This document shows positions 8,316-23,094 of a stretch of DNA of 23,094 nucleotides, in pieces. The first letter of the stretch is position 1. Each line of letters opens with the position of its first letter. The notes beneath the pieces are model-generated. The model ran no database searches and had not been told where the DNA came from. It saw only the letters and a list, made by a program, of their open reading frames with translations. Made by a program: the position numbers and the translations under genes. The stretch covers positions 1 to 23,094 of the IMG/VR virus record IMGVR_UViG_3300042894_007413. The stretch is one strand, 5' to 3'. This DNA is from a virus.

Positions 8316-8319
8316 AGCG

Positions 8320-8924: not shown

Positions 8925-8933
8925 AATTCCTCT

Positions 8934-9390: not shown

Positions 9391-9397
9391 GTCTTTG

Positions 9398-9405
9398 TAT
9401 TTATT
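9398..9405 (-). promoter_or_regulatory. Possible late promoter motif AATAAATA
   Basis: AATAAATA lies 7 nt before the ATG at 9390, two more than at most other sites. It overlaps the end of the upstream lipoprotein gene, so it may be chance or an internal promoter. Confidence 0.3.
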
Positions 9406-9679: not shown

Positions 9680-9688
9680 GGGTGCCTC

Positions 9689-9820: not shown

Positions 9821-10137
9821 GTGGAAAGGATACGCCAAACTATCAGTTGTTCGAGGCTTGACATGTCTGCCACAGTTAACAGCGTCTCATTGGGGACAAT
9901 TTTGTATCTATGCTTGATAGCCCGCTCACGATACTGATTGATGCGACCTGCCAAACATGGCTCCCAAATTTCAAAGCTCAATTTTTTGGTGTCGATGTGG
10001 CCAGTGATGTGAGCGCATTTAAACTCAATCCTGGAAGCATTGCCCATTATATCCTCGTAGAAGATTTTTTCAGAACTTAAAATCACAAGTGCTCTGAAAA
10101 ATCCGCGATCATCTTGTGCTGCCCAAGCAATTCTCAT
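9817..10137 (-). CDS. Hypothetical protein
   Basis: A 106-residue protein from the ATG at 10137, chosen because it lies 10 nt after the upstream stop; the longer frame overlaps that gene. It has mixed alpha/beta composition with two cysteines (FKCAHI, EPCLAG), no membrane segment and no family I recognise. Part of the early operon. Confidence 0.45.
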   Translation of the reverse strand: MRIAWAAQDDRGFFRALVILSSEKIFYEDIMGNASRIEFKCAHITGHIDTKKLSFEIWEPCLAGRINQYRERAIKHRYKIVPNETLLTVADMSSLEQLIVWRILST

Positions 10138-10147
10138 TTGTGTATTC

Positions 10148-10411
10148 TTAGTATCCGTATTTGAGTACAAAAAATGTTAGCAATTCGGGGTCATCAACTA
10201 TCAACGTGGCATCACGGTATTCGTCTGCTCCTTTGAAGCCAGACAACCCCCATTCAGATTTCATCCATTTGACAAAATTTTTTCTGCTGGCAGTTATAGA
10301 ATATCCTTTTTGTGCGGTTCTCTCTCCATATGGGCCAAATTCTAAAGTCCAGGCAGCAACAAATGCTCGCTTGATGTGGTTGTTGTTTGGATCGCTGAGT
10401 TTAACAGTCAT
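10148..10411 (-). CDS. Small phage paralogue (LLTFFVLKY family)
   Basis: An 87-residue protein of unknown function. It ends PELLTFFVLKYGY and has a central WMKSEWGL. The immediately upstream broken gene, and two genes near 15.2-15.7 kb, share the same layout of a central tryptophan helix and a C-terminal (T/S)xF(F/I)(V/A/L)(L/I)K(F/Y) strand. They appear to be one small paralogous family. The ATG lies 1 nt past the stop of the broken copy. Confidence 0.5.
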   Translation of the reverse strand: MTVKLSDPNNNHIKRAFVAAWTLEFGPYGERTAQKGYSITASRKNFVKWMKSEWGLSGFKGADEYRDATLIVDDPELLTFFVLKYGY

Positions 10412-10412
10412 G

Positions 10413-10619
10413 CTATGCTGCGTATTTGATTAGGAAGAATGTCAATAGCTCTGGGTTGTCAATTTTGATGTTATTTGTATCACTAATGTCAATACCCCAT
10501 TCTTTATGCAACCAGGTGCTAAAAGAACCGGCACAGCCAGTACGTCACCAGTCAGTGACTGAACGACGACATGCTGCATCTATCTGACGAAATTCTGGGT
10601 CACTAGTTTTAATAATCAT
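10413..10619 (-). pseudogene. Paralogue broken by an in-frame TGA at codon 25
   Basis: A 68-codon frame starting MIIKTSDPEFRQID and ending PELLTFFLIKYAA is interrupted only by TGA at 10545-10547 (context DW-stop-RTG). Both ends fit the operon closely: the ATG is 3 nt past the upstream stop and the final TAG is 1 nt before the next ATG. The second half aligns well with the downstream 87-residue paralogue. TGA is an ordinary stop elsewhere in the window, so this is most simply a nonsense mutation or a sequence error. Readthrough cannot be excluded. Confidence 0.6.
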
Positions 10620-10622
10620 ATT

Positions 10623-10838
10623 TTACGCCAGATTACCGTGGAAGTAGTACTTGTGGCGACTGGGGTCAGCAGGCGAGCCCAAATACTGAAACCCAGCATA
10701 GTTGCCGGTTTCGTGAAGCACGTTTTCCAGCACGCTGATCATAGCAAATCGTTCAGCGTCAGTGCAAGTGCTATGCTCCAAACGATAGTTGATGTTGATC
10801 ACCAACTCCCTTACGCTGAATGTTTTTCTGTTTGCCAT
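10623..10838 (-). CDS. Small conserved phage protein, first gene of early operon
   Basis: A 71-residue protein from the ATG at 10838 (MANRKTFSVRELVINI). The blocks STC, AMISVLENVLHETGNYAGFQYL match a small helical protein family I have seen in many phages, with no known function. The start is set by a sigma70-like promoter whose -10 ends about 6 nt upstream; an in-frame upstream ATG lies at or beyond that promoter. The mRNA leader would thus be very short. Confidence 0.55.
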   Translation of the reverse strand: MANRKTFSVRELVININYRLEHSTCTDAERFAMISVLENVLHETGNYAGFQYLGSPADPSRHKYYFHGNLA

Positions 10839-10844
10839 ACTCTT

Positions 10845-10874
10845 ATGATAGCAAGACAACGTGAGCGATGTCAA
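10845..10874 (-). promoter_or_regulatory. Sigma70-like promoter (TTGACA-18-TATCAT, extended -10)
   Basis: TTGACA, 18 bases, then TATCAT preceded by TGC, so an extended -10 as well. It faces the minus-strand early operon starting at 10838 and lies back to back with the plus-strand late promoter at 10882. Confidence 0.65.
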
Positions 10875-10881
10875 TTCTTAG

Positions 10882-10889
10882 TATAAATA
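10882..10889 (+). promoter_or_regulatory. T4-like late promoter, perfect TATAAATA
   Basis: TATAAATA, then ATTAC, then the ATG at 10895. It defines the start of the ADP-ribosyltransferase gene. Confidence 0.75.
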
Positions 10890-10894
10890 ATTAC

Positions 10895-12022
10895 ATGAGA
10901 TTCAGGGAAATCAAACACTTCGTGATTGAGTCAACAGAAGATGCTGTGGATTTTTTGAGAAAATATGTTAACGATCCCATGAACAGATGGATCAGTGCAG
11001 ACCGATTTGACAACATTCTCAGCTATTTTCCCTATCAGGGTGGTAAGCTGTATCGCGGTATGAATTTTCTTGACCGGGAATCTTATGAAAAGTTTCTAGA
11101 CGATATCAAAGATGGAGTGGTCAAAACACAATCAATCACCAGCTGGACCAGAGACTTGGACACTGCTTCACAGTTTGCAATCACCAGACCAACTTATTAC
11201 TTTAACTCAGTGTTAGCATCTGCTGAATCGGCTCGACAAAAAAGTGGCGAACATATGGTTGGTTACCGAGGAGTGATTCTGACCACAGTTGTTCCTGCAG
11301 AAGTTGGAGTGGATGTTAATCAATCTGGTGTGGGTGCTGAGGATGAAGTTATCTTACCGGCTGGAAACTACAAAATTCAGATATTCAAAGAGTTTAAACC
11401 ATTTGCCCAACAGGTCGCTGGACGAGATCCCAACGAACTCATTCAGTCTATTTCTCAAGAACAGTTTCGCTCTCAAGAGGAATATAAAAAATTGTTTTAT
11501 TTCCTGCTCACAAACAACAAACCTGAAAGTTTCTCATCTGCCAGCAAACAACATATTTTTCGTTTACTATACAGGAAACCCTACACTCCAGGTAACATTG
11601 CGTACGACGACCGTGTGAGTTACTTTGGATCTTTTGAAGTAACGCCCAGGTATAACTTCGCACCTTTTGGTCTCACAGAATACTTTTTGGACCAGGACCT
11701 AAAAAAACTGAGAAAAGACGCTGACCTCATGCTAAATGACGTGATGAAGACACTTAAACCCAAACTGGCTGAATTTGGAATCTCAGTGGTAGATGTTAAA
11801 CTCACTATTCACCATATTGAATGGGTATTGAAGATGGCATCGCCGGGGGCAATTAGTAAGTACACAAAATTTATCAAATCAATTGTGGCACCAGAAAAGC
11901 AAAAGTTAGAACTCTCAGTCAGAGACATAAACAAAATCACTGACTCAAAACAAAAATCCAAAGCCATCGACGAATACAAAGAAAAGATCACCAGATTGAT
12001 TCGTTTTGCTTCACAGGTTTAG
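10895..12022 (+). CDS. ADP-ribosyltransferase-like protein
   Basis: A 375-residue protein. The first 165 residues show the R-S-E class ADP-ribosyltransferase signature: R54 in KLYRGM, S80-x-x-S83-W in SITSWTRD, and the E-x-E pair E149/E151 in GAEDEVILPAG. It probably transfers ADP-ribose from NAD+ to a host protein. The remaining 200 residues are helical, Lys-rich and unassigned. T4 packs an ADP-ribosyltransferase (Alt) in its head and injects it; the leader here (MRFREIKHFVIE then S) resembles the leaders of other late proteins in this window and could serve the same purpose. The start at 10895 is chosen over an earlier ATG at 10868, which lies upstream of the late promoter. It is the only large plus-strand gene in this half. 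Confidence 0.72.
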   Translation: MRFREIKHFVIESTEDAVDFLRKYVNDPMNRWISADRFDNILSYFPYQGGKLYRGMNFLDRESYEKFLDDIKDGVVKTQSITSWTRDLDTASQFAITRPTYYFNSVLASAESARQKSGEHMVGYRGVILTTVVPAEVGVDVNQSGVGAEDEVILPAGNYKIQIFKEFKPFAQQVAGRDPNELIQSISQEQFRSQEEYKKLFYFLLTNNKPESFSSASKQHIFRLLYRKPYTPGNIAYDDRVSYFGSFEVTPRYNFAPFGLTEYFLDQDLKKLRKDADLMLNDVMKTLKPKLAEFGISVVDVKLTIHHIEWVLKMASPGAISKYTKFIKSIVAPEKQKLELSVRDINKITDSKQKSKAIDEYKEKITRLIRFASQV

Positions 12023-12163
12023 TATTGCTGCTACATTTGATCATAAAAACGCATATAGAACAGGATCTCCTATCCAAACAGTTACGATCTTACTGTCATG
12101 ATTGTCTATTACAATGCTGTTCAGTGTTGTCATGCAGTTTGACTATCAAAGTGCCCACTGAAA

Positions 12164-12676
12164 TTAAAAATACCGATATCTTTCTGTTAGGTTTGATTTG
12201 TTTTCCACCAAACGATCGAACTGACCACTCTCGCCATCGATGTAAAAACCACTGGGATCCAGGATCCGACCACGTAGCTCTACCCAGCTGTGTGGTACCC
12301 ACCGAAACTCTTCTTCCAGATTGTTTTGGTAGATATATGTTTTGCGATCTTTTCGCTTCTTGGGGTTTAGACCAGTTGATCTCATCTGTCTGATATCATG
12401 ACTGGTTAAAGCATCCGGTGTTAGAACCGGGTGATCCAGATGAAACCAACCTTGTGCTTTGATTTGCTTTCCGTTTGTGGTAATTATGTAACCAATTGGT
12501 ATTATTTCTGCAAAACCCGACAGCCCTTTTGTGTCCAAGAACTCTAAAAAATTCTGACTGGCCGAAATGCATCCGTCAGTCGTAAAATACTGGTCAAGTT
12601 TATCCTGACTTTGTTGTCTCCAAAATTCAATTAACAAAGGATCAAATTTTTTGACCATTACCTCTGAGATAAACAT
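12164..12676 (-). CDS. Papain/transglutaminase-like fold protein
   Basis: A 170-residue protein whose order of conserved residues suits a circularly complete papain-like (NlpC or transglutaminase-like) enzyme: C36 in DGCISAS at a helix start, H129 in HSWVELRGR and D140 in ILDPSGF. The HSWVEL-x-GRILDP block is the most telling. It could be a cysteine peptidase, amidase or acyltransferase; no substrate is evident. The start follows a CTAAATA late-type motif by 6 nt. It lies downstream of a tRNA-Leu and converges on the ADP-ribosyltransferase gene with about 140 bases between them in which I see no clear feature. Confidence 0.5.
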   Translation of the reverse strand: MFISEVMVKKFDPLLIEFWRQQSQDKLDQYFTTDGCISASQNFLEFLDTKGLSGFAEIIPIGYIITTNGKQIKAQGWFHLDHPVLTPDALTSHDIRQMRSTGLNPKKRKDRKTYIYQNNLEEEFRWVPHSWVELRGRILDPSGFYIDGESGQFDRLVENKSNLTERYRYF

Positions 12677-12682
12677 ATAATC

Positions 12683-12690
12683 TATTTAGT
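12683..12690 (-). promoter_or_regulatory. Late promoter motif variant ACTAAATA
   Basis: ACTAAATA, then 6 nt, then the ATG at 12676. It overlaps the end of the palindrome at 12686-12716. Confidence 0.5.
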
Positions 12691-12716
12691 GATACACTGA
12701 AAAAGTCTATCACTAA
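12686..12716 (-). promoter_or_regulatory. Palindrome between tRNA-Leu and the 170-residue gene
   Basis: TTAGTGATA pairs with TATCACTAA (12686-12694, 12708-12716), continued inside by ACT/AGT across one mismatch. As RNA it would form a long hairpin 12 nt after the tRNA CCA end, useful as a terminator or processing site. As DNA it overlaps the late motif and could be an operator. Confidence 0.5.
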
Positions 12717-12728
12717 GCCCAGTAATTT

Positions 12729-12814
12729 TGGTAGTCGGAGAGGGAGTCGAACCCTCATGTCTTGCGACGTCAGTTCCTAAGACTGATGCGTATTCCTAAT
12801 TTCGCCATCCGACC
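12729..12814 (-). tRNA. tRNA-Leu (anticodon TAG)
   Basis: A full cloverleaf with long variable arm. The acceptor GGTCGGA pairs with TCCGACT (one G-T at the first pair), the anticodon stem is TCAGT/ACTGA with loop CTTAGGA (anticodon TAG), the variable stem is GTC/GAC, the T arm is GAGGG-TTCGACT-CCCTC, and CCA is encoded. It reads CUA-type leucine codons. Confidence 0.88.
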
Positions 12815-12838
12815 ACATGAATTTTTGTATTTCGGCGG

Positions 12839-12866
12839 GAGCAACCTAAGTTGCTCTTCTTTATTT
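12839..12866 (+). terminator. Hairpin with T-rich tail (plus strand)
   Basis: GAGCAAC pairs with GTTGCTC (12839-12845, 12850-12856) around CTAA, followed on the plus strand by a T-rich tail. It looks like a factor-independent terminator for plus-strand transcription, although no plus-strand gene lies directly upstream. On the minus strand it sits in the leader of the tRNA-Leu. Confidence 0.4.
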
Positions 12867-12945
12867 ATTTATCTCTACCCTTGGGTGGAAGACCGAAAAA
12901 ACTTGGTAGACCCTTTGAGCAAATTGCCCACTTTGAGTAATCTTT

Positions 12946-12953
12946 GCTAAATA
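12946..12953 (+). promoter_or_regulatory. Late promoter motif variant GCTAAATA
   Basis: GCTAAATA, then TATTT, then GTG at 12959. The exact 5-nt spacing selects the GTG as the endonuclease start. Confidence 0.5.
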
Positions 12954-12958
12954 TATTT

Positions 12959-13699
12959 GTGGTTCGCGATATGCAACTATCCAACCACTCTATAACTTCT
13001 AGGGAGTCACAGCAAATGTATTTATCTGATACCGAACACCTTCTAAAATGTCAGTATTGCGGAAGGCCTGCCAAAACAAAAAACTCAAACGCTCAACACG
13101 AAATTCGATGCCATCACAATCCAAACCCATCGAAAATAAAACCTTCTTACGGGATGTTAGGAAAGAAAGGGTCTAATCAACATATCAAATCCAAACAAAC
13201 TGGAGAGGAATATGTTATCGCTGAGTCAACAAGAAAAAAGATTAGTGAAGCAAACAAAAAACGCAGAATGTCTCTAGAAGCTAGAGAAAATCACAAAAAA
13301 TCTATGGCAAGAGCAGTTGAAAATCATCCCGAATCACATCTTTATGGAAACTCACGTAGAACAAAAAGATATTATCATAATGATTTTATTTGTCAGGGTA
13401 AATGGGAACTTGATTTTTATAAATGGTGTTTAGAACAAAACCTCAAAGTTGAACGTGGAACTTCGTTTCCTTACTATTGGGAAGGTCAAACTAGGAAATA
13501 TTTCCCTGACTTTTATCTTCCTGAACTAAATCTTTGGATTGAAGTAAAAGGTTTTGAAACTGAACGTGATCGAGCTAAGTGGAAAGAATTTCCGCATTGT
13601 TTGAAGATTGTTAAAGAACAAGAAATCAAAGCAATTAGAACCGGAAATTTTTTATTGGTGGACCTGGTTGGGATTGAACCAACGACCCTTCGGTTATGA
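12959..13699 (+). CDS. Vsr/PD-(D/E)xK-like homing endonuclease
   Basis: A 246-residue free-standing endonuclease from the GTG at 12959; an in-frame ATG at 12971 is an alternative. It has a C2HC zinc finger (CQYCG...H...C, about 25-47), then NUMOD3-like basic helices (TRKKISEANKKRR), then a Vsr-like nuclease domain (about 143-225) with GKWELDFYKWCL, FPDFYLPE and EVKG, the P-D and E-x-K parts of a PD-(D/E)xK active site. The gene is AT-rich and faces against the neighbouring tRNAs. Its last 14 or so codons are antisense tRNA sequence (GIEPTTLRL is a tRNA read as protein), so it has been inserted right up to, and overlaps, the tRNA at 13656-13732. Confidence 0.72.
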   Translation: MVRDMQLSNHSITSRESQQMYLSDTEHLLKCQYCGRPAKTKNSNAQHEIRCHHNPNPSKIKPSYGMLGKKGSNQHIKSKQTGEEYVIAESTRKKISEANKKRRMSLEARENHKKSMARAVENHPESHLYGNSRRTKRYYHNDFICQGKWELDFYKWCLEQNLKVERGTSFPYYWEGQTRKYFPDFYLPELNLWIEVKGFETERDRAKWKEFPHCLKIVKEQEIKAIRTGNFLLVDLVGIEPTTLRL

Positions 13700-13732
13700 G
13701 CCGATCGCTACTGACCACTGAGCTACAGGTCC
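13656..13732 (-). tRNA. tRNA with CAT anticodon (Met or Ile2)
   Basis: The acceptor GGACCTG pairs with CAGGTCC, the anticodon loop is CTCATAA (anticodon CAT), the T arm is GTTGG-TTCAATC-CCAAC, the discriminator is A, and CCA is encoded. The C13-T22 and A27-A43 positions are mismatched, so it is slightly degenerate. Elongator Met and lysidine-modified Ile cannot be told apart here; it lacks the initiator C1-A72 mismatch. The endonuclease gene overlaps it by 44 bases on the other strand. Confidence 0.82.
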
Positions 13733-13740
13733 ACATTTTG

Positions 13741-13767
13741 CCTTTAACTCCATTGAGCTACGGGTCC
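13741..13767 (-). pseudogene. 5' remnant of a second, related tRNA
   Basis: Begins GGACCCGTAGCTCAATGGAG, close to the 5' end of the intact CAT tRNA (GGACCTGTAGCTCAGTGG), but the similarity stops in the D arm and there is no anticodon or T arm. It lies 8 bases upstream of the intact tRNA on the same strand. It is probably a leftover of duplication or recombination. Confidence 0.6.
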
Positions 13768-13783
13768 ATACTCAGATTAAAAT

Positions 13784-13894
13784 CACAATGTAAACTCAAC
13801 TACTTTATGGTCCCCGACTGCGAGGGTCATTTTAATGATCTAGTTCTAGTTCTAGTCTTTTCAAAACAGTCTAGTTAGTTGAGTTCACACTGTG
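13784..13894 (-). ncRNA. Structured RNA element A (pseudoknot, copy 1 of 2)
   Basis: A 19-bp closing stem (13784-13802 with 13876-13894) with two positions that are A-C mismatches on the plus strand but G-U pairs on the minus strand, so the RNA is probably minus-strand. Inside are a variable hairpin (13837-13843 with 13852-13857, containing a TAGTTC repeat) and a CCC/GGG hairpin (13813-13815, 13824-13826). The loop of the latter contains the complement of GACTG. CAGTC at 13867-13871 can pair with GACTG at 13816-13820, forming a pseudoknot. Copy B has the same layout. I match it to no known RNA family. Confidence 0.6.
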
Positions 13895-13904
13895 AAATTG
13901 TTAT

Positions 13905-14005
13905 GCAGATTAGCAAACTTCCTAACGGTGACCCTGACTGCGAGGGTTATTAATGGATGGATTATAAGTCCAACCTTTTTAAATACAGTCTGTTTGCTAA
14001 TCTGC
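13905..14005 (-). ncRNA. Structured RNA element B (pseudoknot, copy 2 of 2)
   Basis: A perfect 14-bp closing stem (13905-13918 with 13992-14005). Inside are a variable hairpin (GGATGGA/TCCAACC, 13955-13961 with 13969-13975) and the hairpin ACCC/GGGT (13931-13934, 13944-13947). Its loop GACTG (13936-13940) can pair with CAGTC (13986-13990). It shares the core CTGCGAGGGT and the pseudoknot with copy A, while the closing-stem sequences are quite different though both fully paired, which is covariation-like evidence. It lies 10 bases after the stop of the 94-residue gene and 10 bases before copy A. Confidence 0.62.
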
Positions 14006-14015
14006 AAAATCGTTG

Positions 14016-14300
14016 TTACGGCTTGTTGAAGAAGCCCCGCAGAATCTGCACCTTAACAGTGGGCTCGAACTGTTCCGCCAGCTTGTGAACAGCAGCTTCG
14101 TTGGCCTTCTTGCGGTTGTACGCATCCTTGTGGTAGGGCTTAACGGTGGCGACATCCATCACCTCACCCTGCTCGCCCACCAGCACAGCGGTGGTGCTCA
14201 TGCGATTCTGTGTGACCTGCCGACCACGCTGGAAAAACGTCACTGGAGCCAGCTGCCGATAAAACTCAATACTGCACTGCTTACCATTGATAACAACCAT
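14016..14300 (-). CDS. Small hypothetical phage protein
   Basis: A 94-residue protein (MVVINGKQCSIEFYRQ) with a central TTAVLVGEQGEVMDVATVKPYHKDAY strand-turn-strand block and a basic helical end. I do not recognise a family. It has a good ribosome-binding site (AGAGGAT) and a strong sigma70-like promoter upstream, so it is probably early. It is noticeably GC-richer than its neighbours. Both structured RNA elements follow in what would be its 3' UTR. Confidence 0.6.
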   Translation of the reverse strand: MVVINGKQCSIEFYRQLAPVTFFQRGRQVTQNRMSTTAVLVGEQGEVMDVATVKPYHKDAYNRKKANEAAVHKLAEQFEPTVKVQILRGFFNKP

Positions 14301-14317
14301 TTTTTTATCCTCTGTGT

Positions 14318-14357
14318 GTTCTGTGTTTACTGCTAAATTTTGTTCTGTTTACTGCTA
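14318..14357. repeat. Short direct repeat in the leader of the 94-residue gene
   Basis: TGTTTACTGCTA occurs at 14324-14335 and again at 14346-14357, each preceded by GTTCTG. It lies between the -10 box and the start codon and could be an operator pair or a slippage duplication. Confidence 0.45.
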
Positions 14358-14364
14358 CTCTTTA

Positions 14365-14393
14365 AGTATAGCAAATTGCTCAACTTTAGTCAA
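14365..14393 (-). promoter_or_regulatory. Sigma70-like promoter (TTGACT-17-TATACT)
   Basis: TTGACT at 14388-14393, a 17-base spacer, and TATACT at 14365-14370, all on the minus strand. Near-consensus; it would drive the 94-residue gene and the RNA elements and tRNA beyond it. Confidence 0.72.
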
Positions 14394-14402
14394 ACAATTT
14401 GG

Positions 14403-14801
14403 TTACCATCTTTTATTGGGTTGTGGATGCAGGAATTGCACAATGCTGCCATCCAGATGATGCACAGTGTAATCACTGCTAATGTAGCCGTCATTGGGGT
14501 TGGTATACCCATCACTCTCACTACATGGATGCCAGCGATCTCCACAGCATTCACAATCTTTGTTCTCTTCTACTCCGTTGAAATAAATGCCAATATCGCA
14601 TGCACGACTGTTTGCATGTTCAGCATCAAATGCTTGAATGAACACATGGCAGTCAATACCCTGTTCTTCATCCACATCATAACTACCACCACTGTTGTTT
14701 TGATCAAATGAATAAAAGCGTGGCGCCTTTTTTGCCAGTAGATCAAAAGTCAATTGATCCAGATGTTCATTTGCGGGTTTTAGGAGCTTGCTGGTAAACA
14801 T
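14403..14801 (-). CDS. Small cysteine-rich phage protein (CECCGDRW family)
   Basis: A 132-residue protein from the ATG at 14801. It contains ACDIGIYFNGVEENKDCECCGDRW; the CECCGDRW motif recurs in small phage proteins and suggests a metal site. Tyr-, Asp- and Ser-rich C-terminus. Frames reading further upstream are translated tRNA and are not used. The start codon is only 6 nt past the CCA end of tRNA-Leu(TAA), and no ribosome-binding site is visible. The mRNA would be released by tRNA 3' processing with an almost absent leader. Confidence 0.6.
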   Translation of the reverse strand: MFTSKLLKPANEHLDQLTFDLLAKKAPRFYSFDQNNSGGSYDVDEEQGIDCHVFIQAFDAEHANSRACDIGIYFNGVEENKDCECCGDRWHPCSESDGYTNPNDGYISSDYTVHHLDGSIVQFLHPQPNKRW

Positions 14802-14807
14802 AAATTT

Positions 14808-14895
14808 TGGTGGGGATGGAGGGGGTCGAACCCTCACGCTCATTGAGAGCAACGCGGTTTAAGCACGTTGTGGCTGCCGATTACACCACATCCCC
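14808..14895 (-). tRNA. tRNA-Leu (anticodon TAA)
   Basis: The acceptor GGGGATG pairs with CATCCCC, the anticodon stem is ACGTG/CGCGT with loop CTTAAAC (anticodon TAA), the variable arm is GCTC/GAGC, the T arm is GAGGG-TTCGACC-CCCTC, the discriminator is A, and CCA is encoded. Reads UUA-type leucine codons. Confidence 0.9.
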
Positions 14896-14920
14896 AAGTT
14901 GCACTGTTCTTACTTATTTA

Positions 14921-14928
14921 AGTATAGC
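14921..14928 (-). promoter_or_regulatory. Extended -10 promoter for tRNA-Leu(TAA)
   Basis: TGCTATACT is an extended -10 with a strong TATACT; the -35 region (TTAAAA) is poor. It faces the tRNA 25 bases downstream. The same GCTATACTTAAA core appears in the promoter at 14365. Confidence 0.5.
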
Positions 14929-14964
14929 ACACTACTGGCAAATTTTTAAGCATTTTGGTTAACT

Positions 14965-15225
14965 TTAGTTGATCCAATAGTTCAAATCAACAGGTTTGGA
15001 CCTTCTCTCACGCTCTGCTATTTCCTGAAGTTCATCACGGATCTGAAGCACACGATTGGTTAACGCCAGGTTTGAATCCATCAACTCCTTGATTTCAATA
15101 GAGAGTTGAGCACCTTCTTTACGTCGAGCCTCCAGATGCTCAGTCTCTCTTTTAACAAACCAGCGCCGAAACAACCAACCTGCAGTAATGCCTACCGCAA
15201 ATGACAAAAAGACACTAACCAACAT
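14965..15225 (-). CDS. Small membrane-anchored coiled-coil protein
   Basis: An 86-residue protein with one N-terminal membrane helix (about 1-19, then RRWFVKRE) and a long charged helix with heptad-like spacing (about 25-75). The layout resembles inner-membrane spanins or small phage scaffolds, but no lipoprotein partner is adjacent. AGAGG lies upstream and the start overlaps the preceding gene by 11 nt. It ends the early operon that begins at 16053. Confidence 0.5.
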   Translation of the reverse strand: MLVSVFLSFAVGITAGWLFRRWFVKRETEHLEARRKEGAQLSIEIKELMDSNLALTNRVLQIRDELQEIAERERRSKPVDLNYWIN

Positions 15226-15442
15226 ACACCACCTCTGTGTTTTGATTGGAAAACTTTAAAATAAACATAGTGGTTAACTCCTTGGGCAGTATCCACCCAC
15301 TGTGGATAAAGCAATTTTTTGGCGCCACTTCATTGAGCCAATGATCGATTTCTGCTATTGTTAGCAGATTATATGGTGAAAAATATATAATATCACTCTC
15401 AGAGTCAGAGTTACTGTAGATTGTGAATTTCATTGTCGTCAT
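15215..15442 (-). CDS. Small phage paralogue (TMFILKF family)
   Basis: A 75-residue protein of unknown function with a central IDHWLNE helix and a C-terminal ELTTMFILKFSN strand. This is the same layout as the next gene upstream and the pair near 10.2-10.6 kb. The start overlaps the upstream stop as ATGA. Confidence 0.5.
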   Translation of the reverse strand: MTTMKFTIYSNSDSESDIIYFSPYNLLTIAEIDHWLNEVAPKNCFIHSGWILPKELTTMFILKFSNQNTEVVYVG

Positions 15443-15687
15443 CCAACTCGATCCTCATAGAGAACAAATTTTACTTTTGGATCACTAAATTTCAATGCAA
15501 AGAATGATAAAGTAGATTGGTTGATCTCCCAATATAACCTATTATTGAGTACTACTTTGATATCCGTCTGTTGGTCTAACCATTCGTATATTTCACAGTA
15601 CAGTGAGGATGATACATCACTGGGTAATACAACTCGAATATTCATTTTGTCGGCATGTTCAGAGGGTCTGACCCTAACAAAAATCAT
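15439..15687 (-). CDS. Small phage paralogue (LSFFALKF family)
   Basis: An 82-residue protein with a central IYEWLDQQTDIKVVL and a C-terminal TLSFFALKFSDPKVKF. It pairs with the adjacent 75-residue gene as a probable tandem duplicate, and both resemble the 10148-10411 gene. ATGA overlap with the upstream stop. Confidence 0.5.
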   Translation of the reverse strand: MIFVRVRPSEHADKMNIRVVLPSDVSSSLYCEIYEWLDQQTDIKVVLNNRLYWEINQSTLSFFALKFSDPKVKFVLYEDRVG

Positions 15688-15911
15688 AATCTCACGTTAA
15701 GCCATTTTTGATTGGTATCTTTGGTTTGCTCCCAAGTGTTCTCATCACACCATTCCAGCTTGCCTTTGGTCCAATTCTGCTGAGCAATAGCTTTACAATG
15801 ATCAGGATCCTGTGCTAGTATAAAACCACTTACGTGGTCTCGTTCTTTTGATCCAGTCAGGGGGTTGTGTGTGGAAAAACTAATTCCACAGTGAAAAACT
15901 CTAAGATTCAT
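15684..15911 (-). CDS. Hypothetical protein
   Basis: A 75-residue protein from the ATG at 15911 (MNLRVFHCGISFSTHNP). This start overlaps the upstream 50-residue gene by 11 nt; a longer frame would overlay that gene in another frame and is rejected. Contains AQDPDHCKAIAQQNW. No family recognised. Confidence 0.5.
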   Translation of the reverse strand: MNLRVFHCGISFSTHNPLTGSKERDHVSGFILAQDPDHCKAIAQQNWTKGKLEWCDENTWEQTKDTNQKWLNVRL

Positions 15912-16331: not shown

Positions 16332-16613
16332 ATGGATGACATTTTTAAACTCATAGCTGACGTAGGGTTTCCCATGGCAGCAGCTCTGGCAGCCGGGTAC
16401 TTTATCTTTTTGGTTTTAAAATTTATTCTGGATGGTGTTAAAGGCAGCGTAAAATCGCTCAGTGGGTTGATTATGGCGCTGGATAATCGTGTAAAGACCA
16501 TGAATTCAGAAGTTATCCGCATAGACACACTGATGAGTAATGCATTAGGCATACAACCTGATCTAGATCGCATCGCAAGGGCAGATGGAAAAATAGATTG
16601 TCGTAAAGATTAA
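16332..16613 (+). CDS. YvrJ-like small membrane protein, copy 1
   Basis: A 93-residue protein. An N-terminal membrane helix follows the motif ADVGFPMAAALAAGYFIFLVLKF, close to the GFPIVxA start of YvrJ-family proteins, and is followed by a predicted cytoplasmic helix (LDNRVKTMNSEVIRID). The plus-strand gene at 17392 shares this plan, so the two are paralogues split by an HNH endonuclease. Good GGGAG ribosome-binding site. Holin-like activity is a guess. Its stop overlaps that of the convergent endonuclease gene. Confidence 0.58.
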   Translation: MDDIFKLIADVGFPMAAALAAGYFIFLVLKFILDGVKGSVKSLSGLIMALDNRVKTMNSEVIRIDTLMSNALGIQPDLDRIARADGKIDCRKD

Positions 16614-17338
16614 CTTTTGAATTTTTTACATTTATCTCCGTGCCATCTTTTGATATTCACTGGCGTTGAAGTTAAACCACAATGAGGACATGTTGGTCTA
16701 ACAAATCCTTCCCTAAATGAATAATGATTTTTGCCTGTATTTTTAAACCTAACCTCAGGACGTTTAGCAACATTTAACTCTCCTTTGTTCCCGCATTTAG
16801 AATGATCTCGGTGGATTCTACCTTCAGCCCAAGCCTTTTTTCTAGACAATGTTATTTTTTCTCGATATTCTAAGTTCTTCCATAATTCTCGAGCTTTCTC
16901 TGATCGCAATTGCCTAGTTTTGATTGAAGAATTTGTTACTTGATGTTTTCGTCGATATTCAGGATCCTGCCATAATAAAGACGTTGAATCTGAAATTTCT
17001 TTCAAAAAATCCTCTCGTACTTTTTGATAGATTCTAGAATTTGGTATAAAATTTCTTTGACAATAGGGATTAACGCGGTTATTCATCGAAAAAAATGCAG
17101 CAGTCATCTGTTTTGATTTATATGCTTTCCATAACATCCAATGAGCTAAATAATGCTGCCTCGGTGTAAGATCTATCAAATTTCCTGGATGATCTAAACC
17201 ACCCATACTTTTTGGTAAAATGTGATGTTTTTCAGTAATAGAAGTGTTATCAGTATTTTTTATGCTAGAAATAAATTTTATGTATCTGTTTAGATAGTGT
17301 AAAGAAATTGCTTCTGGTAAAGAATATTCGTTAATCAT
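16610..17338 (-). CDS. HNH homing-type endonuclease
   Basis: A 242-residue endonuclease. The HNH motif is EKHHILPKSMGG...NLIDLTPRQHYLAH (about 36-67), the middle is basic and NUMOD-like (RSEKARELWKNLEYREK), and a C-terminal C2HC zinc finger reads CPHCG...H...C (about 217-237). That finger resembles the one in the other endonuclease at 12959. The start at 17338 is chosen because CTAAATA lies exactly 5 nt upstream; a longer frame has no such signal. It is inserted in opposite orientation between two paralogous membrane-protein genes and is AT-rich. Confidence 0.75.
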   Translation of the reverse strand: MINEYSLPEAISLHYLNRYIKFISSIKNTDNTSITEKHHILPKSMGGLDHPGNLIDLTPRQHYLAHWMLWKAYKSKQMTAAFFSMNNRVNPYCQRNFIPNSRIYQKVREDFLKEISDSTSLLWQDPEYRRKHQVTNSSIKTRQLRSEKARELWKNLEYREKITLSRKKAWAEGRIHRDHSKCGNKGELNVAKRPEVRFKNTGKNHYSFREGFVRPTCPHCGLTSTPVNIKRWHGDKCKKFKS

Positions 17339-17343
17339 ATTTT

Positions 17344-17351
17344 TATTTAGT
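17344..17351 (-). promoter_or_regulatory. Late promoter motif variant ACTAAATA
   Basis: ACTAAATA, then AAAAT, then the ATG at 17338. Same CTAAATA variant as at the other endonuclease. Confidence 0.5.
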
Positions 17352-17391
17352 GTAATTTGGATTGATAGGGGACAATAAGGAAACAAATTAA

Positions 17392-17667
17392 ATGGTTAAT
17401 ATAGTTGAACTCATTGGAAAATACGGATTCCCCATTGTGGCGGCTTGTGGATCTTGTTATATGGTTTATTTTACTTGGCAGTGGGCCACTGAAGACATCG
17501 ACCCAGTACTAAGTGAAGCCAACAAATTGACCATTGGATTGATTGATCGCATTCGCATGTTGGACAATGACCTTCTGCGGCTTAATATGAAATTAAAAAC
17601 TGTACTAATGATGCGTGAAATTCAGGGGCGAGAGCCCGACGGCACTGTCAAAATCACCAAGAAATAA
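17392..17667 (+). CDS. YvrJ-like small membrane protein, copy 2
   Basis: A 91-residue protein with an N-terminal membrane helix after IGKYGFPIVAACGSCYM and a helical, charged tail (LIDRIRMLDNDLLRLNMKL). Same architecture and many shared positions with the 16332 gene. TAAGGA lies 10 nt before the ATG. The stop abuts, without a gap, the stop of the convergent cyclase gene. Confidence 0.58.
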   Translation: MVNIVELIGKYGFPIVAACGSCYMVYFTWQWATEDIDPVLSEANKLTIGLIDRIRMLDNDLLRLNMKLKTVLMMREIQGREPDGTVKITKK

Positions 17668-19728
17668 TCACTTGCTTGAGGCACGGTAAACACAGTCCCA
17701 GTCTGCTGGTAGATTGGCCTGTTCCAATTCGGTAATTCTGTTCAGCATCATATCATAATAGTGATCCAGTTGACCATCAAAACAGCCACGCAATGCTGCA
17801 ATTTTGGCCGTTGCGCTGGCCCATTTTTGCTGGCAATAGTATTCCAGCATGCGGTTGTGTTCCTCTCTGGCTATCCAGTAGTCTTTGGGTGCAGTATTCA
17901 GTTCATCCACCACAGTGTAGATATCTACTCCCACTTTTTTGCCTTTGACTGCAATGTTATCCAATTTGATTAGAAAGAATTCGTCTTTGGCTTGTTCAGC
18001 AGTGGTGGGCCCGATCACTATCTTTACTCCATAGGGTTTGCTTTGACCTTCCAATCTAGCAGCCAGACTCACACTGTCTCCCAATACATCGTATCCAAAC
18101 CGAGTTTTTGCACCGATGTTGCCAATCAGTGTGACGCCAGTGTTTACTCCCACGCCCATGCCCACTGGTGGTCTGCCTTCGGCAATCAGTTCCTGGTTAA
18201 ACTGTTCCACAGCCTTTAACATGTCCAGTGCTGTTTTGACTGCACTGACTGCGTGTTTGTGGTCATCCAGCGGAGCACCATGCACATGCAAACTGGCGTC
18301 GCCGATAAACTTGATCAAACAGCCCTGATTTTTCATAATGGGATCAGCAATTGCAGTCATGTAACGATTCATTGTGGCAGTAAATTCCTCCACTCTGTCG
18401 CCATAACTTTCACCCAGAGCAGTGAAGTTTCTCATGTCCGTCATAATAATGCTGAGTTCCCTGTTTTCGCCACCCAGTTTGATCAGTTCGGGATTCTTTT
18501 GCAAACGCTCCACTATCACTGGGCTAACATACCCACCAAACTGTTTTTTAATCTGCATTTTCTGCAAGAATTCATAGACAAATTTCACACCATAACAGTG
18601 TAGTCCCACCAGCACCACTGCAACTACAAAAAATGTGCTGTCAAACAGCCACAGATATTGATCAAACAGATATCGGCTTCCCCATATGCCAGCAGCAATC
18701 AAAGTCAACATGGTGGCCAAACCCACGTAAACCCAACGACTGAGCAGCAGCAACAGAACGCCAGCCAGTGCAGCGGCCAGTATTTCCACACCATCTGCGT
18801 AGTCTGGTCTCTGAATGTTAACACCGTTGGCCAGCGTGCCAATCACTGATGCCTGCACATGATGTGGCCAAACAGCACCAGCGGCTGTGGGAACTGGATT
18901 GGCAATACCAGCAGCCGTTGCGCCCACTACCACAATGGCACCGCCAAAATCTTTGGGCAGTTGAGTAACACTGACTTTTTGATGTTGCTGACTCCAGTCA
19001 ATCCAGACTCGACTCAATTGATCAGTGACAATGGGACCAAAAGCTGGTATTCGCATCTTTTCCACTCCGCCCGGAAACAGTTTGACCTGAAAGTTTTCAT
19101 CACCAGCAGCCACTCTAATTACTTCCATACTCAGACTGGGGTAGAGTGTGTCACCCACACGAGCCAGCAGTGGAATACGCCGAACCACACCGTCAATTTC
19201 TGGCAGTGTGTTTATGGTGCCCACCCCCACTGCGGATTTTTCCAAAAACATGATGTTAGATGTAATACCCGGATAACTCAGGATCTGATTCTGATATTCG
19301 CTATTGAGTATGGCTGCTCCAGTTTCTCTGGGAGTATTGCGATTCTTTTCACCCAGCGAACTCACCAACAACACTGGATACCGTTTCATAACAGCAGCCA
19401 ATTCAGAATCCTCTCGCATGCGATCTGGTTCAGGCATCAGAACATTTAACACCACCAAGCCGGCATTGCGTTGGTAGATATCATGTATGATCTGCGCATA
19501 TTCTCCACGAGGCAGCGGCCACTGACCCAGTTTCTCCAGTGCGGCATCATCAATATCCACTGTGTATACATTGTTTTCAATGGGTGCCTTGGTGGTAATC
19601 AAAGTATCAAAATACCTAAGCCTAACACTTTCCACAAAGGGTGTATCGGTGATTCTCAGAGACAACAACAGGCCCAGTGTGATCAGTGCGCACCAGGGAT
19701 TGAGTAACAGTTTGCCGAGTTTTTTCAT
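17668..19728 (-). CDS. CHASE2-domain class III adenylate/guanylate cyclase
   Basis: A 686-residue membrane enzyme. After an N-terminal helix (about 10-26), residues 30-310 form a periplasmic CHASE2 sensor domain (VYTVDIDDAALEKLGQWPLPR is typical), then three membrane helices (about 312-385), a linker ending FGGYVSP, and a class III cyclase domain (about 420-610) making cAMP or cGMP. The metal-binding Asp residues are D431 and D477. K473 and D547 are the expected adenine-selecting pair, favouring ATP, and R558 is the transition-state Arg. The usual transition-state Asn (GDxVN) is Ser here (S554). It has its own late-type promoter motif. The upstream genes encode FecR and curlin-repeat proteins; FecR-CHASE2 cyclase pairs are familiar in bacterial genomes. 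Confidence 0.82.
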   Translation of the reverse strand: MKKLGKLLLNPWCALITLGLLLSLRITDTPFVESVRLRYFDTLITTKAPIENNVYTVDIDDAALEKLGQWPLPRGEYAQIIHDIYQRNAGLVVLNVLMPEPDRMREDSELAAVMKRYPVLLVSSLGEKNRNTPRETGAAILNSEYQNQILSYPGITSNIMFLEKSAVGVGTINTLPEIDGVVRRIPLLARVGDTLYPSLSMEVIRVAAGDENFQVKLFPGGVEKMRIPAFGPIVTDQLSRVWIDWSQQHQKVSVTQLPKDFGGAIVVVGATAAGIANPVPTAAGAVWPHHVQASVIGTLANGVNIQRPDYADGVEILAAALAGVLLLLLSRWVYVGLATMLTLIAAGIWGSRYLFDQYLWLFDSTFFVVAVVLVGLHCYGVKFVYEFLQKMQIKKQFGGYVSPVIVERLQKNPELIKLGGENRELSIIMTDMRNFTALGESYGDRVEEFTATMNRYMTAIADPIMKNQGCLIKFIGDASLHVHGAPLDDHKHAVSAVKTALDMLKAVEQFNQELIAEGRPPVGMGVGVNTGVTLIGNIGAKTRFGYDVLGDSVSLAARLEGQSKPYGVKIVIGPTTAEQAKDEFFLIKLDNIAVKGKKVGVDIYTVVDELNTAPKDYWIAREEHNRMLEYYCQQKWASATAKIAALRGCFDGQLDHYYDMMLNRITELEQANLPADWDCVYRASSK

Positions 19729-19741: not shown

Positions 19742-21025
19742 TCAGGGCTGATTGACAGTAACTGAACATCCAGATGGATTTGTGCAAATTTGGCTTATGC
19801 TGTAAATTTGGCCAGCGTTAACACCATTCTGGTTCAGAGTAAAATTCACACCGCCGCCAGCATTTATCAATGACACTGTGGCTTTGTTTTGTTTGGTACC
19901 TTCTTGTGTTACGTCGGCCCGATGTCCGTTGCCTTGCAATGTTAAATCCAGATAATGATTGCCAGTGCCTCGTTGAATTAGGTTTGTTGTATTGTTGCTG
20001 CCATCCAGGGTTAAGAACAGCAGTTTACTTGTATTGTCCTGCTGGGATTGAGATATCACATTGTTATTGCCTGTGATGTTGTTTTCCAAATAATGGCCAC
20101 CAGTGCCACCTGTGTTTATCTGCTCCACACTAACTGAGTTACGGCTACCATTCAGATTTAATAACTGATAGTGACCATTGGAACTGAGTCCTCCCTGTCC
20201 AGTAAAAGACACCGACTGGTTAAGGTTCACTGTGTTGGCATCACCAGAAATTTTGAATTCTATTTGATTTTTATCTGGATCAGAACCGTTCCAACCCTGA
20301 CGCACTGTAACCACATTGTCATTGCCCTGAATTTCTGCGGTGTCCTGACCCACTCCAGAAAACTGTGTTTTAGACCCAATCTGCGTAATAGATACACTAT
20401 TGTTATCTCCCCAAACTGCTAAGTTTATTGAATTGTTAATAATGTTTCGATTTGCAAAGGAAGTTACTCTGGTCTGTTGAGCACCAGTGATGTTGCTGGA
20501 ATAAGTCACTGGCTGAGTGGTGGCGTATGCACTGGCAGGCACGCTCACTATGCCATTGCCGTCACCAACGTCCCAGTACAGCATGGATACTGCTCCACCT
20601 CCCCATTCAGAAAACCATACATCCAGGTAATAGGATGTCCCAGCAGTCAGAGTCAACGAGGTTTGGTAATTATAAAATGCTGGACCGTGCAGACCCCCAA
20701 TATCATTTACTATGGTGTTTCCATCCACTGACATTTTGAAACCGTCGTCAGATACTATGTAAAAAGTAATGGTTTTTTGTTGATTGGCTGCGCCGGACCA
20801 CTGAATCCATCCGGTGTAATGAACCAGTACTTTATCAGAACGGCCACTGTTTAGTATGTTACCGCCACCCCAGTCGTGGTTGATACTGGTCACAGTCCCA
20901 GTACTGAGTGGTGTGCCAGGATTGGATATGTTGGGTGGCCAGGTGGGAATATAATAGGTGGTGAAATTCAGATTGGCCCACAGCGTTAGGGAAAACAGGC
21001 ACCATGTTGTGATTAGTTTTGTCAT
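19742..21025 (-). CDS. Secreted PA14-domain protein with curlin-like repeats
   Basis: A 427-residue protein. A signal peptide (about 1-17, ending LTLWA) is followed by a PA14 domain (about 20-170; TGWIQWSGAANQQKTITFYI and SDDGFKMSVDGN are characteristic), which usually binds carbohydrate. Residues 195-427 are a chain of curlin-like repeats of the form G-x2-N-x3-V-x-Q, several preceded by (G/N)HYL (for example GHYQLLNLNGSRNSVSVEQ and GNHYLDLTLQGNGHRADVTQ). The last repeat carries two Cys (C414, C420) that may form a disulfide. A carbohydrate-binding tip on an amyloid-like fibre is the natural reading. The start overlaps the FecR stop as ATGA, so it is coupled. Confidence 0.72.
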   Translation of the reverse strand: MTKLITTWCLFSLTLWANLNFTTYYIPTWPPNISNPGTPLSTGTVTSINHDWGGGNILNSGRSDKVLVHYTGWIQWSGAANQQKTITFYIVSDDGFKMSVDGNTIVNDIGGLHGPAFYNYQTSLTLTAGTSYYLDVWFSEWGGGAVSMLYWDVGDGNGIVSVPASAYATTQPVTYSSNITGAQQTRVTSFANRNIINNSINLAVWGDNNSVSITQIGSKTQFSGVGQDTAEIQGNDNVVTVRQGWNGSDPDKNQIEFKISGDANTVNLNQSVSFTGQGGLSSNGHYQLLNLNGSRNSVSVEQINTGGTGGHYLENNITGNNNVISQSQQDNTSKLLFLTLDGSNNTTNLIQRGTGNHYLDLTLQGNGHRADVTQEGTKQNKATVSLINAGGGVNFTLNQNGVNAGQIYSISQICTNPSGCSVTVNQP

Positions 21026-22152
21026 TTTTGCCTAATAATGATCACAGTGTTACCGCCAAAATTTATGGTATTTACTATCTCCAATTGGCTTTGAATCAGT
21101 GTGATGCGACTTTCAGAAACGCCATCTCTGAGCACCTGGGCCTGGTTATTGTCCGTGTCGCGACTGGTGATCTTTTTGGCATTTTCTTTATCTGATTCTG
21201 GTTCATCAATTTCTGAAGGAACGTCCAGACCTGACTTTACCTCTCTGACCTCCACAATAGTTATCACAGGAGGCGCCACTGTGGCCTGGGCAGAAATTTT
21301 GGGTTGAGCACTGATGGTTTTTTGTACTTTCTGCACAATGTTGGATACAAAATCCTGATCCAGCAGGTTGGGTAACAGGTCAGTATTTAGGTCCTGTGCC
21401 GGATCCTGCTGATCCAGCTGATTAGCTAGAAAATTTGCATTCAACATATCAGAATCCAGCTCATTGTTGGCCTCAGCAACTCGCTGGGCAGATTTGATTT
21501 CTGCAGGCTGACTTTGTATCAGCAGATTTTTGATTGCATCCTCACTGATATTGAGTACAACTGGGTTGGAAGGAGCCGCGTCGGAGTTTGCCACAAATGT
21601 GGCTTGGAAAGGACGGTTCATAAAAACACTGGCTGCTTCGGTGCTCACTGTGATGGCTCCGGTTTTGCAATCCTGTTCCAGGTTAGCCCAACCTGGCGGG
21701 CACACTGGCAGTAACACCACAGTGCTGCGACCCAGTTCGTCCACAACACTCATGAAATCTGTTCCTCTTACGCCCACTGTGGCAGTGGGTGTTCGAACAT
21801 TCACGCTGGCTGGATTATTTTTAGCTATGGCTCCACTAGCGTACCTCACAGTACCCAGTGCCACTTTGAGTGCCAGTTTGCCTGATCCCTTTCTAGCAGG
21901 ATCATAAACAAATTCGTCCACCACCAATCGGCTGTGTTCCGTGACCTGCATCCGAGTATTGTCAGCAAATGTAATGCTCACCCTACCAGTGCCGGTTTTG
22001 ATCAGATCCTTCATCTCCACACCAGTGCCCTGAACTCCGGGTAGACTTTTTTGTTGGCGTATTATTACTGCTGTTTGTTGAGCAGTCTGAGTTATACTGC
22101 CCACACTGGCCCATGCCGTATAACCGAATAATAACGCCAACAAAATTTTCAT
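21022..22152 (-). CDS. Secreted FecR-domain protein
   Basis: A 376-residue exported protein. Signal peptide about 1-16 (ending YTAWAS), then a FecR domain (about 20-150) with GDL-type strands and the characteristic TPTATVGVRGTDF (121-133). A C150/C162 pair follows, then a long low-complexity acidic/Gln-rich linker (200-340). The C-terminus ends INFGGNTVIIIRQK, resembling one curlin repeat (N-x3-V-x-Q), so the protein may dock on the fibre (inference). AGGAG overlaps the upstream stop, and the gene is 10 nt behind the curlin-repeat gene. FecR domains sense or scaffold in the periplasm; here the natural partners are the cyclase and the fibre proteins. Confidence 0.75.
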   Translation of the reverse strand: MKILLALLFGYTAWASVGSITQTAQQTAVIIRQQKSLPGVQGTGVEMKDLIKTGTGRVSITFADNTRMQVTEHSRLVVDEFVYDPARKGSGKLALKVALGTVRYASGAIAKNNPASVNVRTPTATVGVRGTDFMSVVDELGRSTVVLLPVCPPGWANLEQDCKTGAITVSTEAASVFMNRPFQATFVANSDAAPSNPVVLNISEDAIKNLLIQSQPAEIKSAQRVAEANNELDSDMLNANFLANQLDQQDPAQDLNTDLLPNLLDQDFVSNIVQKVQKTISAQPKISAQATVAPPVITIVEVREVKSGLDVPSEIDEPESDKENAKKITSRDTDNNQAQVLRDGVSESRITLIQSQLEIVNTINFGGNTVIIIRQK

Positions 22153-22162
22153 AATTCTGCTC

Positions 22163-22834
22163 CTAGTTTTGTGTAACTATGGTGAAGGTATTGGTACTAC
22201 CCACGCTCAGAATATTCACCGAAGTATCAATGGTTCCAGCTTGAGTAACATTAAATGAGTTGCTGCCTCCATTGCTGTCTATTTTTAAGTAATGACCATT
22301 GACTCCAGCTATGCCAGTTTGTGCAATAGTATAGGTGTTACTGGCACCCACACTCTTGATATCATTGGTGGCTTTGCTGCTGCTCAACGTCATGTTCAGT
22401 GTGTTTCCGTTGCCACCACTGAAATCCAATTTATTGTTGATGCTTTCAGCATTTACGCTGATGTCCATGGTGTTGTTGCTGCTGTTAATCGTGGTGTTGA
22501 ATGTGTTGTTGTTGCATTTTTGCCCAGCGTTGGCACCACCACAAGCAAAATTTAGAGAATTGTTGTTTCCAGTGGCACCGTAGTTAAAGGTATTTGAACC
22601 TGTGCCAATCATACTGATAGCCATGGTGTTGTTGTTTCCAATCTGGTTAATAGTTACCAAATTGGTGTTTCCGGTAAATTTGGCGTTTGCTGCGGCTGTT
22701 CCCACACTATTGCCAGATCCAGTTTGGTTGACGGTGATCTGTGTATTGCTACCAGTTTGATCGATATACACCTTGTTATCTGCTGCAATTAGCTGGCTCA
22801 GCATCACAATCAATGCTAATGCTAATTTTTTCAT
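22163..22834 (-). CDS. Secreted curlin-repeat (curli-like fibre) protein
   Basis: A 223-residue protein. Signal peptide MKKLALALIVMLSQLIAA is followed by an almost uninterrupted array of curlin-like repeats: IDQTGSNTQITVNQTGSGN, then INQIGNNNTM, and so on, rich in Asn, Gly, Thr and Ser with alternating hydrophobic positions, ending in a (G)HYL-type repeat also seen in the PA14 protein. C98 and C107 may pair. Curli subunits CsgA and CsgB are secreted through CsgG and form amyloid fibres; the csgG gene lies directly upstream, 10 nt from this ATG. It is longer and has more varied repeats than classical CsgA. Whether it is the main or the nucleating subunit cannot be told. A good AAGGAAG site precedes the ATG. 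Confidence 0.75.
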   Translation of the reverse strand: MKKLALALIVMLSQLIAADNKVYIDQTGSNTQITVNQTGSGNSVGTAAANAKFTGNTNLVTINQIGNNNTMAISMIGTGSNTFNYGATGNNNSLNFACGGANAGQKCNNNTFNTTINSSNNTMDISVNAESINNKLDFSGGNGNTLNMTLSSSKATNDIKSVGASNTYTIAQTGIAGVNGHYLKIDSNGGSNSFNVTQAGTIDTSVNILSVGSTNTFTIVTQN

Positions 22835-22844: not shown

Positions 22845-23094
22845 TTAAAACCAATAGGTTTTTCTATTTTTTACTGCGGATGTGGTTGGTGCCGCAGTAA
22901 CAGCAGATGTTGCAGGAGGGTTTTGATATTGCCAGAGTTTTTGTTTAACTCCCTGATTGATTAGTTCCAACACTGCTGATTCGGTTGCAGTTTTGACTGC
23001 AAACGTTACGGGTTCATTGACCACATAACCGATTTCAGCTTCCAGTGCGTCCAGGTTGCCATTGATGAACTTTAGTGAAGCAACCTGAGCACCA
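22845..23094 (-). CDS. csgG: Curli secretion channel CsgG, C-terminal part
   Basis: The last 82 codons of a gene that continues beyond the window. The sequence EIGYVVNEPVTFAVKTATESA followed by ELINQG and KLWQYQN matches the end of CsgG, which in E. coli reads similarly around LGYTSNEPV and LINDGIDRGLWDLQN. CsgG forms the outer-membrane pore for curli subunits. The tail after this point is a Thr/Ala-rich extension ending TYWF. The start, lipobox and promoter lie outside the window. Being followed by a curlin-repeat gene strengthens the call. Confidence 0.75.
   Translation of the reverse strand, partial: GAQVASLKFINGNLDALEAEIGYVVNEPVTFAVKTATESAVLELINQGVKQKLWQYQNPPATSAVTAAPTTSAVKNRKTYWF

Follow-up and report, generated by a model that had tools for sequence, protein, structure and literature searches.

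Curli operons carried by phages are known from pelagiphages and from phage Melnitz (PMC9599517, PMC7029224, PMC9004378) and have been reported as common in ocean viromes (PMC9599517). In the available portions of these papers, the operon is read as serving sibling capture (PMC7029224), as providing a pore in lysis (PMC9004378), or as a full type VIII secretion system with FecR as an iron regulator, plus a histidine kinase and a cyclase (PMC9599517); there is no agreed mechanism. The same portions of the three papers contain no mention that we could find of a PA14 domain or a curlin-like FecR part for the phage operon. Here we describe a curli operon in a viral sequence of 23,094 nucleotides (IMG/VR record IMGVR_UViG_3300042894_007413, positions 1 to 23,094; hereafter the window), and we report that the strongest link among its FecR-domain protein and two curlins is not a shared histidine motif but a curlin-like rung that ends every curli-operon FecR.

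On its minus strand the window carries, in operon order, the end of a CsgG gene, curlin1, the FecR-domain protein, curlin2 (a PA14-curlin) and a CHASE2 cyclase (Table 1); an earlier sequence-only reading had delimited three of these genes, and its coordinates and open reading frames (ORFs) were borne out. With a CsgG pore gene, of which the C-terminal part lies in the window and which is complete in relatives, and with curlin-repeat fibre proteins bearing signal peptides (read by eye), the locus is a phage-borne type VIII secretion (curli) operon. Curlin_rpt matches were obtained in the curlin proteins, one of them over the cut-off, and curlin1 is the orthologue of the "curlin minor subunit" of phage HTVC008M and of the Melnitz curlin. 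A CsgF gene is found in nearly all relatives, and its expected place, upstream of CsgG, falls outside the window. The first 772 bases of the window are identical to a longer contig that bears genes for tail fibres, RIIA and a T4-type clamp loader, so the window comes from a T4-like phage rather than from a misplaced bacterial contig. Three contigs of this phage population, recovered via another gene, stop short of the operon.

Relatives of the FecR protein were found with an alignment query, a single-sequence query having given just three distant RTX-type loci. From 80 viral loci (out of 500 relatives found) and 6 genome contigs, 49 non-redundant curli-operon FecRs were drawn; locus L052, whose FecR frame lacks the curlin-like tail unit and is probably broken or different, was excluded. 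The gene order is kept in about 80 loci. Since loci were selected by FecR similarity, the counts given here describe operons having FecR.

The curlin-like tail of FecR

The FecR protein had been described from sequence as ending in one lone N-x3-V-x-R-Q strand. A curlin-like strand is indeed present at the C-terminus (...NFGGNTVIIIRQK) with the expected N and RQ, but I replaces V, and the tail is more than a single strand, since three strands are predicted and two Gln residues stand 21 residues apart. In the AlphaFold2 model, a linker of about 145 residues with little structure joins a compact domain to a curlin-like tail of 1.5 repeats, the tail being built as strand, strand, arc, strand (Table 1). 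Read against a curlin repeat, this modeled order is second strand, first strand, arc, second strand, i.e., one and a half predicted curlin repeats. Neither HYL nor GH occurs in the terminal rung of the window protein.

A unit of this kind, for example NSTITQTQG-NVTITNRINAGGNTFITTKQN, ends all 49 non-redundant curli-operon FecRs. Its last Gln is invariant (49/49), and a preceding Gln stands 20-23 residues earlier in 48 of the 49, a spacing of about one curlin period (23 in the curlin2 of the window, Q328-Q351-Q374). Compared to 49/49 curli-operon FecRs, the terminal motif was found in 1 of 57 FecRs outside curli operons and in 16 of 1173 other ORFs; for the full motif, the corresponding control counts were 0/57 and 8/1173. 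When the FecR tail was compared with curlin profile to profile, the score was 13.2 over 39 columns, whereas permuted-column controls gave a mean of 2.7 (standard deviation 1.4, maximum 6.1) and FecR windows off the tail about 4 or less. In most members, the place in FecR that best fits a curlin-repeat hidden Markov model (HMM) made from curlin1 and curlin2 alone is the extreme C-terminus, with scores that shuffled tails seldom reached. Between the window-like and HTVC008M-like subgroups the tail sequences differ, with the pattern kept.

Two Caulobacteraceae contigs from metagenome-assembled genomes (MAGs) carry the order CsgF-CsgG-curlin-curlin-FecR-cyclase, with the tail on FecR, and one of these operons lies amid clear chromosomal genes (methylmalonyl-CoA mutase, acyl-CoA dehydrogenase); thus the tail is not a phage oddity. 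FecR and cyclase were absent from four further alphaproteobacterial CsgF-bearing loci (L182-L185). The curli operon was also seen on MAG contigs L090-L095 and L125, labelled Flavobacteriaceae, Rhodobacteraceae, Pirellulales and Pelagibacter; L090, L092, L094 and L095 carry the phage-type membrane pair described below and probably derive from phages but were binned with bacteria.

The histidine motif and the head of curlin2

Co-assembly had originally been suggested on the ground of a (G/N)HYL repeat variant shared by the two curlins. The variant is present in both and exceeds chance in shuffles of each protein (P at most 0.0005), but it is no signature of the family. The complete pattern is fitted exactly by one curlin1 rung (GHYL-KIDSN-G-GS-N-SFN-V-T-Q, residues 180-198), while the curlin2 rungs GHYL (310-328) and NHYL (356-374) are each one position off (Q for V and H for N, respectively) and a third curlin2 rung reads GHYQ (284-302). 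[GN]HYL occurs in 8 of 43 non-redundant curlin2 proteins, in none of the 49 FecRs and in a single curlin1 of 43, that of the window; being private to this phage in curlin1, it was rejected as a co-assembly signature. HY[LQ] is found in 21/43 curlin2 proteins, and the recurrent feature is a Gly-His opening the penultimate curlin1 rung and also certain curlin2 rungs. HYL is thus a local elaboration at the start of a rung, on which no case for co-assembly can be built. Unusually long curlin1 proteins with extra C-terminal repeats were seen at L064 (4866-5999, 377 aa) and L125 (1589-2749, 386 aa).

In the AlphaFold2 model of curlin2, the curlin solenoid runs without a break behind a PA14 domain. 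Among PDB structures, the PA14 head resembles domains of an RTX adhesin and of yeast adhesins with sugar bound; the curlin part of the model had no PDB match among the matches listed, which the PA14 domain filled. The tandem-Asp motif is SDDG in the window and DDG in the PA14-bearing relatives, and in known PA14 domains the DDG motif holds calcium and sugar (PMC6650083). The PA14 domain of curlin2 is a predicted carbohydrate-binding head. PA14 was found in 13 of 31 relatives (in 8 of them with the GLEYA model), the rest having another domain or none, while the solenoid stays throughout and so does, in most, a C-terminal cysteine pair. As modeled, curlin2 joins an N-terminal domain that can be swapped to a continuous curlin solenoid; a fibre module that is conserved while its heads are exchanged is in keeping with an adhesin.

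Probable joint assembly and its alternatives

All three proteins have signal-peptide-like starts and curlin-type C-terminal strands, the strict form of the strand motif occurring in 49/49 FecRs, 18/43 curlin2 and 13/43 curlin1 proteins. The degenerate curlin-type repeat at the FecR C-terminus is of the kind that marks a CsgB-type nucleator. The FecR tail, the predicted continuous solenoid of curlin2, the similar C-terminal strand of all three and the conserved gene order together argue for joint assembly, and we judge the chances to be about even that FecR serves as the anchor or nucleator of a lectin-headed curli fibre, with curlin1, curlin2 and FecR building one surface fibre. The division into fibre body, carbohydrate-binding part and anchor proposed by the sequence-only reading is thus retained as the best reading of the evidence, for reasons other than HYL; of the solenoid-face comparison that it called for, half was made: curlin2 is predicted to fold as a solenoid, and the FecR tail, at low confidence, to form three strands.

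In such an assembly, all three proteins would pass to or through CsgG/CsgF, and the FecR domain would fold in the periplasm or at the outer membrane. The folded domain would be unable to follow its tail through the narrow pore, so that FecR would be held back while its tail presented a template rung for the stacking of curlin1 and curlin2. FecR would then act as nucleator and anchor, the role of CsgB and CsgF in E. coli; curlin1 would form the fibre, and curlin2 would add carbohydrate-binding heads of a type swapped between phages. The infected cell might thereby bind neighbours or particles, and the CHASE2 cyclase may report on the state of FecR or of the fibre.

The compact FecR domain offers a weaker structural match to a "cell surface anchoring domain" (5ix9; 73/76 residues, root mean square deviation 2.2, Z 6.7, Foldseek TMt 0.73), which we take to be the domain that retains an RTX adhesin at the outer membrane. 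By NCBIfam, the domain weakly resembles the Leptospira surface proteins Lsa33 and LipL45; a PDB sequence search with the FecR profile gave no match. At three other loci (L007-L009), a FecR-like domain stands near the N-terminus of giant proteins. L007 encodes a giant cadherin-like protein with such a domain (7746-15857), and the genes after it look TolC-like, ABC-like, HlyD-like and CHASE2-cyclase by eye, a neighbourhood that appears compatible with an anchoring use of the domain.

Several observations weigh against joint assembly. The 5ix9 match is under Z 8, and AlphaFold2 confidence for the FecR tail is modest (predicted local distance difference test, pLDDT, 58-69). Single-sequence curlin HMM scores of FecR tails are weak, near zero (median 1 bit), and Pfam Curlin_rpt gave no match in 47 FecRs, so the tail is visible only through profile-profile comparison and conservation. 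With CsgG and the FecR domain as controls for the phylogeny of the module, distances of curlin1, curlin2 and the FecR tail show no additional coupling (partial r 0.04-0.07, p about 0.24), and Melnitz-infected cells are reported not to have clumped under the conditions used (PMC9004378). Conservation and profile similarity do not prove docking of the FecR tail on curlin. We put forward only tentatively the bolder proposal that the FecRs of phage curli operons and of some alphaproteobacterial ones form a new class of amyloid nucleator and tether, in which the FecR domain would serve as a periplasmic stopper and the tail, reaching through CsgG, would replace CsgB and hold the lectin-headed fibre on infected cells.

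In known FecR regulators, a cytoplasmic anti-sigma domain and a membrane helix come first. The window protein shares the regulator fold, its FecR domain being matched by that of PupR over 135 residues (Z 15.1) and by other FecR-like domains of anti-sigma regulators (Z 14-15), but here the domain directly follows the signal peptide, the model contains no N-terminal anti-sigma domain and no later transmembrane helix, and no sigma factor or TonB receptor gene was seen in the operon. Lacking the anti-sigma part, FecR is unlikely to be the iron-dependent transcriptional regulator of the operon proposed in PMC9599517; this domain content already largely refutes that role, which we regard as highly improbable. 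The main rival to joint assembly, possible though doubtful as the whole explanation, is that FecR is a periplasmic sensor working with the CHASE2 cyclase, its tail not structural but reading unassembled curlin or fibre status and the output being a cyclic nucleotide signal. The cyclase is the final gene of the operon, a CHASE2-cyclase homologue lies within about 6 kb at 21 of 57 FecR loci outside curli operons, and a Burkholderia biofilm operon sets a LysM-FecR protein beside a CHASE2 histidine kinase (PMC5192318). However, FecR-cyclase pairing occurs without any curlin-like tail and so does not explain the tail, and some curli loci appear without an adjacent cyclase, although contig ends often cut there. 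A sensor role could also hold in part.

Another reading, extending PMC9004378, makes the operon a gated outer-membrane pore in lysis, with curlins and FecR as gate parts and, as holin-like partners, a pair of small membrane proteins encoded beyond the cyclase. These paralogues (types A and B), each with one transmembrane stretch and a coiled-coil-like part (by eye), are linked to the phage operon: at least one is present in 18 of 22 phage loci with enough flank, and both in 16, either upstream on the same strand or on the opposite strand. Among 50,697 phage records, the pair was found only in six curli-phage records, and it is absent from the Caulobacteraceae loci. One member weakly matches the holin family phrog_4898 (E=8e-4 over 19 residues), and Pfam gave no family over the cut-off for either. 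We consider the lysis pore unlikely, since the fibre proteins are maintained as a complete set, exchangeable heads included, which a pore would not need. A similarly improbable alternative is that the C-terminal strand toward which curlin1, curlin2 and FecR all tend is an export or docking signal for CsgG/CsgF and no fibre rung. Against it, conservation takes in three strands and another Gln at a distance of one repeat, like a folded curlin unit, and in E. coli an N-terminal segment targets CsgA.

If FecR is a fibre anchor and not an iron regulator, the operon would be a complete, testable surface-adhesin system of nucleator, fibre and lectin head. The swapped heads hint at binding targets of the infected cell, and the linked membrane pair suggests a phage-specific component that has so far been missed.

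Features of the window and comparison with known systems

Table 1. Features of the curli operon and the linked membrane pair; positions are those of the window
Feature	Position	Strand	Support
Last 82 residues of CsgG; gene truncated at the end of the window	22845..23093	-	Pfam CsgG 4e-5, PHROG_20175 8e-12
Curlin1, CsgA/B-like fibre protein, 223 aa, signal peptide	22163..22834	-	Curlin repeats
HYL rung of curlin1, GHYLKIDSNGGSNSFNVTQ	22241..22297	-	GH at same rung conserved in relatives
FecR-domain protein with curlin-like tail, 376 aa	21022..22152	-	Pfam FecR 2.7e-11, PHROG_37870 2.8e-95; 80 viral loci
FecR domain, residues 18-200, directly behind signal peptide	21553..22101	-	AlphaFold2 pLDDT mostly above 90; PupR Z 15.1
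Curlin-like FecR tail, residues 348-376	21025..21111	-	Predicted strands 348-354, 357-363 and, after the arc, 369-375
Curlin2, PA14 domain and curlin solenoid, 427 aa	19742..21025	-	Pfam PA14 2e-5 (over cut-off), Curlin_rpt; AlphaFold2 model
PA14 lectin-like domain, residues 17-163, DDG (D-cis-D-like) motif	20537..20977	-	Z 13-17 to PA14 chains (about 140 residues)
Curlin beta-solenoid of curlin2, residues 199-425 (predicted)	19751..20431	-	Strands alternate in the model; pLDDT above 85 for most of it
HYQ rung of curlin2, residues 284-302	20120..20176	-	Motif scan
GHYL rung of curlin2, residues 310-328	20042..20098	-	Motif scan
NHYL rung of curlin2, residues 356-374	19904..19960	-	Motif scan
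CHASE2 and class III cyclase, 686 aa, last operon gene	17668..19728	-	Pfam CHASE2 1.7e-38, Guanylate_cyc 1.3e-20; PHROG_35576 2.9e-196
Small membrane protein A, 93 aa, of operon-linked pair	16332..16613	+	PHROG_18771 1.4e-31
Small membrane protein B, 91 aa, of operon-linked pair	17392..17667	+	PHROG_18771 1.2e-25

Between the two membrane genes lies a homing endonuclease gene (16610-17386, minus strand; PHROG_655, 4.9e-45). We would guess that the pair is the "histidine kinase, sometimes two" mentioned in PMC9599517; at about 92 residues, its members are too small for a kinase. The window cyclase has Ser where the Asn of the VN-L-ASR motif stands in 25 other curli-operon cyclases and 14 others, and this Ser is common to three relatives. 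Elsewhere in the window, a 384-aa protein (10868-12022, plus strand) matches a phage minor head protein family weakly over residues 52-115 and appears ADP-ribosyltransferase-like by eye, and a ClpP-like protease (7686-8486, minus strand; Pfam CLP_protease 1.2e-24) overlaps other ORFs.

The closest described operons are those of Pelagibacter phage HTVC008M and Methylophilales phage Melnitz, which have the same order, CsgF-CsgG-curlin-FecR-second curlin-cyclase, with 36-38% identity in FecR (by alignment) and 34-39% in the cyclase; compared to their module, the window has the membrane pair beyond the cyclase on the other strand. In the available portions of the papers on these phages, FecR is taken as an iron regulator or goes unmentioned. 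The FecR/PupR anti-sigma regulators have the FecR domain fold in common with the window protein, which differs in having neither anti-sigma domain nor transmembrane helix and in bearing a curlin-like tail. With E. coli curli the operon shares curlin repeats and the CsgG pore, and the degenerate FecR tail recalls the imperfect C-terminal repeat of the E. coli nucleator CsgB (PMC10192328). Unlike E. coli curli, the known phage order shows no CsgE, CsgD or separate CsgB; the FecR tail would fill the nucleator or anchor role, and curlin2 is lectin-bearing. RTX adhesins with PA14 (M. primoryensis and M. hydrocarbonoclasticus; PMC6650083) likewise combine an anchor domain, a repetitive extender and a calcium-dependent PA14 sugar-binding domain, whose fold is matched by that of curlin2; they do so in one chain exported by type I secretion, whereas the window system divides these parts among separate proteins, presumably exported via CsgG.

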